A stretch of DNA of 64,000 nt from Bradyrhizobium diazoefficiens (GTDB lineage Bacteria; Pseudomonadota; Alphaproteobacteria; Rhizobiales; Xanthobacteraceae): positions 124,001 through 188,000 of the forward strand of contig NZ_JAFCJE010000006.1 in assembly GCF_018131185.1 (NCBI RefSeq), given 5' to 3'. The notes beneath the pieces were generated by a model. It saw only the letters and a program-made list of their open reading frames with translations, was not told where the DNA came from and searched no databases. Position 1 is the first letter of the stretch, and every line of letters starts with the position of its first letter. Below, piece after piece: positions 20,439 through 35,554 of the stretch. Made by a program: the position numbers and the translations under genes.

Positions 20439-20547
20439 CTGTCATGCCCCGGCTTGACCGGGGCATCCAGTACGCCGCGACGAGAGTTGATTGATGCGAC
20501 TGCAGCCTCTGGAATCCTGGATTGCCCGCTTTCGCGGGCAATGACAG
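20439..20547. repeat. Palindromic intergenic repeat (family D)
   Basis: CTGTCATGCCCCGGCTTGAC...GGGGCATCCAGTACG and, inverted, TCCTGGATTGCCCGC...GCGGGCAATGACAG. A sister copy is at 34593-34698. Confidence 0.8.
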
Positions 20548-32920: not shown

Positions 32921-33880
32921 GTGCCGAGATTTGTAACTGTCGCAGCCGGCCAGCTTGGCCCGATCGCGAGGACCGAGACCAGGGTCGAAGTGGTGGCCCG
33001 GCTGATGGCCTTGATGCGCGAGGCGAAGGCCTGCAGCTGCGACCTGATCGTCTATCCCGAGCTCGCGCTGACGACGTTTTTTCCGCGCTGGTACTTTGAG
33101 GATCAGGCCGAGATCGACGGCTTCTTCGAGCGCGAGATGCCGGGCCCGGAGACGCGAGGCCTGTTCGATCTGGCACGCGAGCTCGGGATCGGCTTCTGTC
33201 TCGGCTATGCCGAGCTGACGGTCGAGGCCGGAATTGTCAGGCGCTACAACACGTCCATCCTCGTCGACAGAAGCGGCACGATCGCCTTGAAGTATCGCAA
33301 GGTCCATCTGCCCGGCCATGCCGAGCACGAGCCGTGGCGCAAGTTTCAGCATCTGGAAAAGCGCTATTTCGAGCCCGGCAGCGGCTTCGACGTCGCCAGC
33401 GCGTTCGGCGGCGTGATGGGCATGGCGATCTGCAACGATCGCCGCTGGAGCGAGACCTATCGGGTGATGGGTCTGCAGGGCGTCGAGATGGTGATGATCG
33501 GCTACAACACGCCGGTGCACAATCCGCCCGCGCCGGAGCATGACGATCTCTCGCTGTTTCACAACCACCTGGTGATGCAGGCCGGCGCCTATCAGAACGG
33601 CACCTTCGTGGTCGGCGTCGCCAAGGCCGGTCTCGAGGAGGGTGTGGACCACATCGGCGGCAGCTGCATCATCGCGCCCTCGGGCGAGATCATCGCGCGA
33701 TGCGCGACCAAGGGCGACGAAGTCGCGCTGGCGCGCTGCGATCTCGATCTCTGCAATTCCTACAAGCGCACCACCTTCAATTTCGACGTCCACCGCCAGC
33801 CGCAGACCTATGGGCTGATCGTGGAGCGCAAGGGGGTGACGACGATGGCGGATGGAATGCCGGCGCGGGCGAGGGAGTAG
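32921..33880 (+). CDS. N-carbamoyl-D-amino acid hydrolase (nitrilase superfamily)
   Basis: A 319-residue cytosolic amidase that hydrolyses N-carbamoyl-D-amino acids to D-amino acid, CO2 and NH3. The catalytic triad is Glu47 (YPELALTTFFPRW), Lys127 (KYRKVHLPG) and Cys171 (AICNDRRW), almost exactly the numbering of the Agrobacterium enzyme. FQHLEKRYFEPG, GYNTPVHNPP and QAGAYQNGTF are also characteristic. GTG at 32921 was chosen because AGGGA lies 7 nt upstream and the protein then starts like the family; an ATG at 32906 is less suitable. No hydantoinase or racemase gene is adjacent. Confidence 0.92.
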   Translation: MPRFVTVAAGQLGPIARTETRVEVVARLMALMREAKACSCDLIVYPELALTTFFPRWYFEDQAEIDGFFEREMPGPETRGLFDLARELGIGFCLGYAELTVEAGIVRRYNTSILVDRSGTIALKYRKVHLPGHAEHEPWRKFQHLEKRYFEPGSGFDVASAFGGVMGMAICNDRRWSETYRVMGLQGVEMVMIGYNTPVHNPPAPEHDDLSLFHNHLVMQAGAYQNGTFVVGVAKAGLEEGVDHIGGSCIIAPSGEIIARCATKGDEVALARCDLDLCNSYKRTTFNFDVHRQPQTYGLIVERKGVTTMADGMPARARE

Positions 33881-34004
33881 CGAGGGAGTAAGGCTCTCAT
33901 CCGGGCTACCGCTCCAATACCGTCGCCTGTGTCGCCCTCTGTCAATCCACTAGCGCGAAAATATTCCACTTTACCGAAATTCGGTTTCGGCGTATGTGTC
34001 GTGC

Positions 34005-34560
34005 ATCCCGGCTCACTCAAGAGGGGCGATCATGAGGTCGTCATTTTCGCGAGCCGGGTCTGCGGTGGACGCGGCAGCGTCGGCATGAGAGGTGCGGGCA
34101 GGGCGGGTAGTCCCCGTGAGCCCGTAACCGCGTGCGGACGACGGCGCTGCCAGGCTTCGTCTCGCCTGTAAGTTCTCAGCTCCGTCGACAGGGCTGGGAA
34201 TACTGCGGCGACATGGCGGGCCGTGCGTACGGCAAAACCGTGTGGTCCTGGCCGTCGTTGCCACGGTCAAGTTCTGCGGAGGTGCGAGCGAGCCCAACCG
34301 GGCAGACTGCATCATCCAATTCGCGGGGCGAGGGAGGCCAGAGGAAAGTTCGGCTCCCGGGAGAGCACGGCATAAGCCGTCCGACCATCGCGCAGGGAAG
34401 GCCGAGTGATCGGCACCACCTGTATGCTGCTGTGCGGTTCTTCCTGCGTGCGCATGTCGCGCAGCGGACCGCGGGTGCCTGTCGGCACCCGGCCTTCCCT
34501 GCGCCCTCTTGGACAAGAGGGTGGAGACGCAAGCAAAGCTCGGGCGAATTCAGCCGCGAG
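34005..34560. repeat. Large structured intergenic element (probable Bradyrhizobium dispersed repeat)
   Basis: A gene-free segment rich in nested inverted repeats. A perfect 15-bp pair, 34390-34404 with 34490-34504, encloses smaller stems: GGGTGCC/GGCACCC (34473-34490), GCGGT/ACCGC and CTGCG/CGCAG. A further hairpin CCCTCTT/AAGAGGG (34504-34521) and CGGCT/AGCCG (34351-34379) flank it. From memory, similar sequence recurs in many Bradyrhizobium genomes, where it is often misannotated as short proteins. Boundaries are approximate. Whether it is transcribed as an RNA or is a non-autonomous mobile repeat is not clear. Confidence 0.55.
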
Positions 34561-34592
34561 GCCGACGAGTCATGTCTGTCACCACACACTCA

Positions 34593-34698
34593 CTGTCATC
34601 GCCCGGCTTGACCGGGCGAGCCAGTATTCCAGCGACGCTCGCGGTTGAACCGAGAAGCCGCGGCGTACTGGATTCCCCGCCTTCGCGGGGAATGACAG
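34593..34698. repeat. Palindromic intergenic repeat (family D)
   Basis: CTGTCATCGCCCGGCTTGAC...GAGCCAGTATTCC and inverted TACTGGATTCCCCGC...GCGGGGAATGACAG; same plan as 20439-20547. Confidence 0.8.
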
Positions 34699-34780
34699 CG
34701 TTCCTTGGAGAACGGGCTGCCGCCTCACACTCAGCCTCTCGCAATGACGTCGTTGGGAGAGCATGCGCCACTTCGCTCTC

Positions 34781-34836
34781 GTGCCCCGGACGCAGCGCGG
34801 CGCCGCTTTGGCGGTGCGGCTTGTCCGGGACACCGG
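34781..34836. repeat. Palindromic intergenic repeat (family F)
   Basis: GTGCCCCGGACGCAGCGCGGC...TGCGGCTTGTCCGGGACACCGG; the outer arms CCCCGGAC/GTCCGGGA pair. A related copy is at 62701-62777. Confidence 0.62.
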
Positions 34837-34840
34837 CGCT

Positions 34841-35554
34841 TCAATGACCGCGCCTCATCCCCTCATCAGCGTCCACCTCCGGCGCCATCGCCGCCCAAGC
34901 ACTGGACGCGAACTGGCGTCGCCACGTCACGACCACCACGGCCGCCGTGGTGACGAACAGCAGCCAGGGGCTGACGAACCAGCCGAGATAGCCGAGTGCG
35001 AAGAAGAAGGCGCGCTGGCCACGGTTGAAGTGGCGGCCGGCGGATTCGAACAGGCGCGAGGTGCGGATCACATGGGCTTCGGCCTCAGGTGTGTCGCGCT
35101 GGTCCGCCGGCGGCATGCCGCCGAACAGGATCGCGACGTAATTGAACAGGCGATAGGCCCAGGCGAACTTGAAGAAGGCGTAGACGCAGATCAGCACGAG
35201 GCCAACGCATTTCAGCTCCCACATGGCCGGCGAGGTGCTGAGGTCGATCGGCAGCTTGCTCAGAATCGTGATGGCGTCGTTGGTGGCGTGCAGCAGCGCC
35301 AGCGCGCCGCCGAGCGCGAACAGGCTGGTGGAGGCGAAGAAGGCAGTGCCGTTCTGAAGCGAGGTCATGATCTGCATGTCGACCATGCGGGTGTCGCGGT
35401 CGAGCAGGCGGCGCACCCAGACCTCGCGATAGCGGTTCATGCGCGCCGACAGACTGTCGCGGCCATAGGCCGAATGCTCGAGCGTCAGCGCATAGACCAG
35501 CCATTCGATGATGAAGAAGCCGACGGCGGCGATGTCGACCCAATGCCTGCTCAT
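34841..35554 (-). CDS. DUF599 membrane protein
   Basis: A 237-residue protein with four predicted membrane helices (about 7-25, 73-92, 112-135 and 195-215). The N-terminal ALTLEHSAYGRDSLSARMNRYREVWVRRLL and central SLQNGTAFFASTSLFALGG are the DUF599 pattern; the family is also known from plants and proteobacteria, with unknown function. GGAGA precedes the ATG. It is divergent from the GST gene across a 120-bp gap. Confidence 0.88.
   Translation of the reverse strand: MSRHWVDIAAVGFFIIEWLVYALTLEHSAYGRDSLSARMNRYREVWVRRLLDRDTRMVDMQIMTSLQNGTAFFASTSLFALGGALALLHATNDAITILSKLPIDLSTSPAMWELKCVGLVLICVYAFFKFAWAYRLFNYVAILFGGMPPADQRDTPEAEAHVIRTSRLFESAGRHFNRGQRAFFFALGYLGWFVSPWLLFVTTAAVVVVTWRRQFASSAWAAMAPEVDADEGMRRGH

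Follow-up and report, generated by a model that had tools for sequence, protein, structure and literature searches.

Bradyrhizobium, the soybean symbiont, is widespread in soil. In one stretch of a B. diazoefficiens genome, 64,000 nucleotides long and referred to here as the window (contig NZ_JAFCJE010000006.1, positions 124,001 to 188,000), a gap between two genes contains a dense set of inverted repeats, which raises the question of what kind of element occupies it. An original prediction, made from the sequence alone, had placed a highly structured element at 34351-34521 (positions are those of the window throughout) and had left the choice between a structured noncoding RNA family and a small non-autonomous mobile element. 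The flanking genes leave a gap of ~960 bp between them, from 33880 to 34841, in keeping with the gene-free gap of roughly 1 kb that had been described. The perfect 15-bp inverted pair is also present, with 85 nt between its arms and nested stems inside, and it is flanked on its 3′ side by a perfect hairpin formed from an 8-letter inverted pair (34504-34511 and 34514-34521), 6 bp of which form in the predicted fold. As RNA, 34351-34521 folds at -97.5 kcal/mol, compared to -74.8 ± 4.3 kcal/mol for dinucleotide shuffles (z -5.3, 0/200 as good), and the longer segment 34003-34565 yields a z of -4.5 (0/100 as good). Chance hairpins were rejected on these values, and the predicted excess of structure over chance was upheld. 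The predicted extent had to be revised, since 34351-34521 covers only the 3′ domain, about a third of a unit that begins ~420 nt further upstream, at ~33925.

The element is multicopy. A BLASTn search for copies returned 48 matches in the source genome and matches in 18/18 same-genus relatives, so that the sequence is not single-copy and recurs across Bradyrhizobium as had been anticipated. What aligned copies share is a unit running from ~33925 to ~34578; their flanks are unrelated, and similarity stops at TGTCTG. Full-length copies, taken from the 5′ end to the last hairpin, measure ~530-640 nt (Table 1). Model R1, a covariance model built on the 3′ domain from 56 sequences, matched 34 distinct places in the source genome. 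Many copies are intact: 32 of the 34 scored at least 147 bits and the remaining two 73 and 64 bits. Few decayed copies were detected in the source genome with this model, which very decayed ones would escape. Weaker opposite-strand matches to the model, at positions 55-165, are shadows of the palindromes and were left uncounted, as was one weak match (C18:43604-43728, E 7.6e-6). Six of the 34 copies are cut at contig ends, and several contigs of this assembly (for example C3, C7, C18, C19, C21 and C22) break within the element. Assembly is thus limited by the repeat, and more than 34 copies may in fact exist. A longer, autonomous copy, considered because contigs end at BLAST-query positions 41 and 367, was rejected given the length of the full-length copies; the breaks at these positions arise because the near-identical core collapsed in assembly.

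Table 1 Features of the window copy and the evidence for each
Feature	Position	Strand	Evidence
Whole repeat unit, ~650 bp: inferred promoter region plus probable RNA gene	33925..34578	+	Borders shared by copies whose flanks are unrelated
Inferred promoter region, AAATATTCCACTTTACCGAAATTCGG	33959..33998	+	Strongly conserved among aligned window-type copies
-35-like TTTACC, 17-nt spacer, -10-like TATGTG	33970-33975, 33993-33998	+	Part of the inferred promoter region
Predicted RNA 5′ end	~34003	+	
5′ closing helix P1, CCCGGCTC (34007-34014) / GAGCCGGG (34051-34058), plus inner arm	34007..34058	+	Covariation
Conserved block TGCGGTGGACGCGGCAGCGTC	34061..34081	+	Kept in Bradyrhizobium and other genera
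Conserved GCGTACGGCAAAACCGTGTGGTCCTG, then hairpin GGCCGT/ACGGTC (34250-34255/34263-34268)	34225..34268	+	Hairpin recurs with differing arms
Stem GGGAGGCC/GGCTCCC	34332..34358	+	Apparent compensatory variants in alignment
Conserved GGGAGAGCACGGCATAAGCCGT	34359..34380	+	Conservation in alignments A2 and A4
Long helix Pa, 5′ arm of the 15-bp pair, GCGCAGGGAAGGCCG	34390..34404	+	99.8% of cells paired
Hairpin Pd, GCTGTGCG/CGCGCAGC	34429..34465	+	83.3% of cells paired; 4/5 modelled pairs change on both sides
Hairpin Pb, GGGTGCC/GGCACCC	34473..34490	+	100% of cells paired; 4/6 pairs change on both sides
Long helix Pa, 3′ arm of the 15-bp pair, CGGCCTTCCCTGCGC	34490..34504	+	99.8% of cells paired
3′ hairpin CCCTCTTG/CAAGAGGG, terminator-like, without T run	34504..34521	+	Sequence; loop differs among copies
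Terminal hairpin Pf, CTCGGGC/GCCGCGAG	34539..34560	+	98.4% of cells paired
3′ border of unit	~34578	+	End of similarity among copies

The RNA structure is conserved among copies. In an alignment of the 3′ domain (49 sequences), 96.1% of cells pair and both sides change in 19 of 33 pairs, while sliding the partner by 1-3 columns lowers pairing to 34-46%; this alignment was fitted to the covariance model and leans towards structure. A small hairpin beside Pa was dropped from the model, because it competes with Pa pairs. For the proposed pairs, a tree-based test on 45 sequences (a purpose-written G-test with 100 tree-simulated nulls) gave 9 of 46 at E<0.05, distributed over five helices, with 0-1 for slid controls. 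When all column pairs were tested, a single pair reached E<0.05. This counts against an RNA gene, although power was probably limited by the deep divergence of Bradyrhizobium from the other sequences. The two sides of Pa are exchanged together in other genera, from GCGCAGGGAAGGCC/GGCCTTCCCTGCGC to GCGTGCGGAACGCC/GGCGTTCCGCGCGC, as are those of Pb, from GGGTGC/GCACCC to GGACGC/GCGTCC. One pair of P1 passes the tree-based test, and one is GC in 23, CG in 23, TG in 11 and TA in 4 of 68 sequences. A central motif, GTGTGGTC[CT], occurs in 69/82 copies, and in 61 of these 69 it is directly followed by a perfect 6-bp hairpin built from 15 different arm pairs (shuffled control, 167/980, 17%).

In other genera of the family, the sequence upstream of P1 contains a sigma-70-type promoter whose position is fixed. 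TTGACA-N16-18-TATAnT was found at the homologous position directly upstream of P1 at 9/12 or better in 21/24 other-genus copies (shuffles, 7.4%). The match is weak in Bradyrhizobium (6/23 copies at 9/12 or better; shuffles, 6.5%), which counts against an RNA gene; the window copy scores 7/12, no better than shuffles, and upstream sequences differ in other Bradyrhizobium subfamilies. Excerpts of a transcription start site study of strain USDA 110 give an RpoD-like consensus of TTG-N(16-18)-TATA (PMC4842269). Each copy may be transcribed from its own promoter, which in Bradyrhizobium is suggested by position and conservation only, and transcription of the element appears likely. Ahead of the promoter region, many Bradyrhizobium copies (for example L055, L057, L069 and L072) carry a CCGTCGGGCAAAACACC-like word, and 5′ of the unit a subfamily shares a recurrent CCCAAATCA-like word. 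Both are possible regulator sites.

To get a broader picture of the distribution, genomes were searched at several taxonomic levels. With covariance models, the element was found in 72/149 genomes and 25/47 genera of the family, and is thus present across it; 77/149 family genomes gave no match under strict filters. Since over half of the sampled family genomes lack a match, the element is not shown to be essential. Neighboring families contain it thinly: 28/297 genomes of the order matched, 17 of them outside the family and several weakly, and in the class the count was 3/289, comprising the source genome and two weak matches (E 1e-4 and 2e-4). BLAST found no element in 12 genomes of other families (0/12). 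In most of the other-family loci inspected by eye (L249, L259, L260 and L263-L269), a stem resembling P1 and a long helix resembling Pa were recognized along with promoter-like sequence, and the GGTCC-type hairpin is clear in L259 and L260 only. At one order-level locus, L250, what looks like a 3′ domain of the Bradyrhizobium type follows sequence that seems to be coding; this locus may represent contamination or a truncated copy. Rfam 15 contains no family that matches the element at gathering score, and none overlapped it in 11 related loci; the sole match was a miRNA model (E 0.082; 25 bits against a required 168). A known Rfam RNA was therefore rejected. In the main texts of open-access papers, none was recognized as describing the element.

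In 15/26 other-genus copies, the last hairpin is followed by a word of the form TGTTTGA[CA]A, most often GGCTGTTTGACAA or a near variant (shuffles, 0.1%). The leaders of the rRNA (rrn) operons contain GGCTGTTTGACAA or GGTTGTTTGACAA 248-273 nt upstream of 16S in 6/6 operons from four genomes, including the source genome, and we take this leader word to be boxA. The word was found in 4/56 rows of the Bradyrhizobium set, one of which (L118) is from another genus, and the window copy is without it. When four rrn leaders were compared with the element by BLAST, nothing convincing emerged beyond boxA. Judged from the shared word, copies in related genera may contact the Nus/S10 antitermination factors.

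We further characterized how the copies evolve. Three loci have both flanks in common between different species, and at these the element mostly groups with paralogs from its own genome rather than with its orthologs. The 'right' copies of G013, G014 and G005 group with genome-mates, as do L075 with L210 and L053 with L071; L100 and L051 show no clear grouping with genome-mates, which counts against concerted evolution. Ortholog clades were rejected for two sets (AU p 3.9e-5 and 1.4e-7) and were borderline for the other two (AU p 0.048 and 0.052). Copies at several loci evolve in concert, which is most simply explained by gene conversion among them. Elements also lie preferentially on the leading strand, with 81/111 listed elements compared to 452/834 predicted genes in three single-contig genomes (p 1e-4); the bias is not significant in one of the three (14/20, p 0.19). 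For this comparison, origin and terminus were placed by the GC skew of 20 sampled pieces per genome and genes were called by a simple ORF rule, and the elements are the score-limited matches listed, which lack weak copies. Even chromosomal spacing held in one genome (CV 0.71, p 0.005), failed in three others and was dropped as a property of the element.

The window itself has an unusual junction. In the single-contig genome G005, the left and right genes each have an element of their own and are 2.6 Mb apart, whereas here one element joins both. The two genes are likewise megabases apart in single-contig G008 and lie on different contigs in several drafts. Recombination between copies may have produced the junction, or the draft may be misassembled here, which is possible because its contigs break in the repeat. 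Two further palindromic repeats were observed in the gap, outside the unit. A separate CGTC-like one, CTGTCATCGCCCGGC ... GGGGAATGACAG, lies directly 3′ of the element at 34593-34698; its end has a near-copy at 20527-20546, and palindromes like it stand 3′ of the element in several relatives. The other, GTGCCCCGGACG ... TGTCCGGGACA, lies at 34781-34832, between the element and the right-hand gene, and sequence like it is found near the orthologous right-hand gene in some relatives.

We interpret the element as a large noncoding RNA gene of ~570 nt, structured, multicopy, independently transcribed and trans-acting, and consider this reading probable. It follows the first of the two options in the original prediction, a dispersed structured RNA, which stands with many copies, strong covariation and no reading frame. 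The folded RNA would have a stem at its 5′ end, a middle part that varies and a 3′ domain that is conserved, and would act in trans, probably as a ribonucleoprotein (RNP) or as a regulatory RNA needed in quantity. Action in trans is proposed because there is no recurrent neighbor family, copies are intact and homogenized in the manner of rRNA, and they prefer the leading strand. Going further is tentative: the element might represent an undescribed class of large RNP-forming RNA, ancestral to much of the order, with its own promoter and a 3′ boxA linking it to rRNA antitermination, that in Bradyrhizobium was amplified to tens of copies, homogenized and co-oriented with replication like rRNA genes.

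The strongest rival, which we nevertheless regard as unlikely, is the second option, a non-autonomous mobile element of MITE or HEARO type. Here, the structure would be a substrate or guide for transposition encoded elsewhere, and the element would have no host function. Copies are certainly dispersed: species differ widely in where their copies lie, which shows spreading of the kind expected from a mobile element, and presence at orthologous gaps is patchy. Among the genomes counted, listed copies range from 1 to 54, with at least 54 among the matches listed for the same-genus genome G161 and 1 to 23 total matches per genome in other genera (14 genomes counted). Insertion at replication forks would also give a leading-strand bias, and a sharply bordered ~432-nt version occurs twice, at 91% identity, in G205, a genome of another family (L263 956-1387 and L264 1101-1534). 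The marks of transposition were nevertheless not recovered. Comparison of empty and filled sites gave no clean junction and no recognizable target-site duplication, with the flanks strongly diverged, and no terminal inverted repeat between the unit ends was found by a repeat finder in the window copy or by eye in the aligned copies. No protein family was specifically recurrent beside 20 other-genus copies (180 predicted ORFs compared all-against-all), where the largest neighbor group spans 5/20 loci at varying distance; an autonomous copy, if rare, might have escaped this comparison. Phages gave no match, and 72,556 plasmid records a single one of 71 nt. The scarcity of detected decayed copies, a promoter kept together with the RNA in other genera and concerted evolution at fixed loci also argue against this explanation. 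A trans-acting RNA needed in dose fits better than a decaying repeat.

Far less probable is a cis-acting repeat in 3′ untranslated or intergenic regions that affects mRNA stability or termination, like the REP or CGTC palindromes. The element does sit in intergenic gaps, where it sometimes directly follows a stop codon and neighbors further palindromic repeats. However, its neighbors have mixed orientations in the 10 of 24 source-genome copies that were callable on both sides (+/- 4, -/+ 3, +/+ 2 and -/- 1), it is ten to twenty times the length of a REP and has conserved blocks outside the stems, and it has its own promoter in other genera. The remnant of a protein-coding gene can be dismissed with near certainty: long open frames occur on both strands, as expected at the given G+C content, but among 50 full-length copies 465/472 pairwise indels relative to the window copy are not multiples of 3 and variability is equal in the three codon phases (0.117/0.120/0.117), so that no conserved protein frame runs through the stems.

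If this repeated chromosomal sequence is a large selected RNA and not junk, annotation has missed a substantial class of RNA. Apart from the rRNA genes, bacteria would then have an RNA family with concerted evolution over tens of loci, and a large noncoding RNA would be linked, in a testable way, to Nus-factor antitermination. The element explains assembly breaks, and perhaps rearrangements, at its loci, and the ~432-nt pair in G205 is useful for finding the mode of dispersal.

The short dispersed palindromes of Bradyrhizobium described in excerpts of earlier work, Br-REP1/Br-REP2 (PMC5082802) and the CGTC/GTAG REPs (PMC3733652), resemble the element as dispersed, intergenic and palindromic DNA of the same genus, and differ from it in size, the unit being ~650 bp. 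Allowing up to 3 mismatches, the window contains neither the Br-REP1 nor the Br-REP2 consensus word. Identity with Br-REP1/2 was rejected on both grounds, in line with the predicted unlikeness to short REP elements. The 'Rhizobiales-1' motif, a 2010 candidate from Rhizobiales with no Rfam accession, shares the order-level distribution and was likewise flagged as a possible, uncertain RNA; going by its table entry, it could overlap part of the element (PMC2864571).

Like the proposed RNA genes, rrn operons are multicopy, are homogenized between loci and prefer the leading strand, and their boxA word recurs in many copies of the element from other genera. They differ in having boxA in the leader, whereas that of the element is 3′ of the RNA, and the element has far more copies, in scattered intergenic places. 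OLE, GOLLD, ROOL and HEARO are large structured bacterial noncoding RNAs whose function is unknown or partly known. The element resembles them in spanning several hundred nucleotides, with many conserved helices and blocks and no reading frame. It is set apart from them by the lack of an Rfam 15 match at gathering score and of a phage match, by its tens of chromosomal copies evolving in concert, and by a 3′ boxA in related genera.
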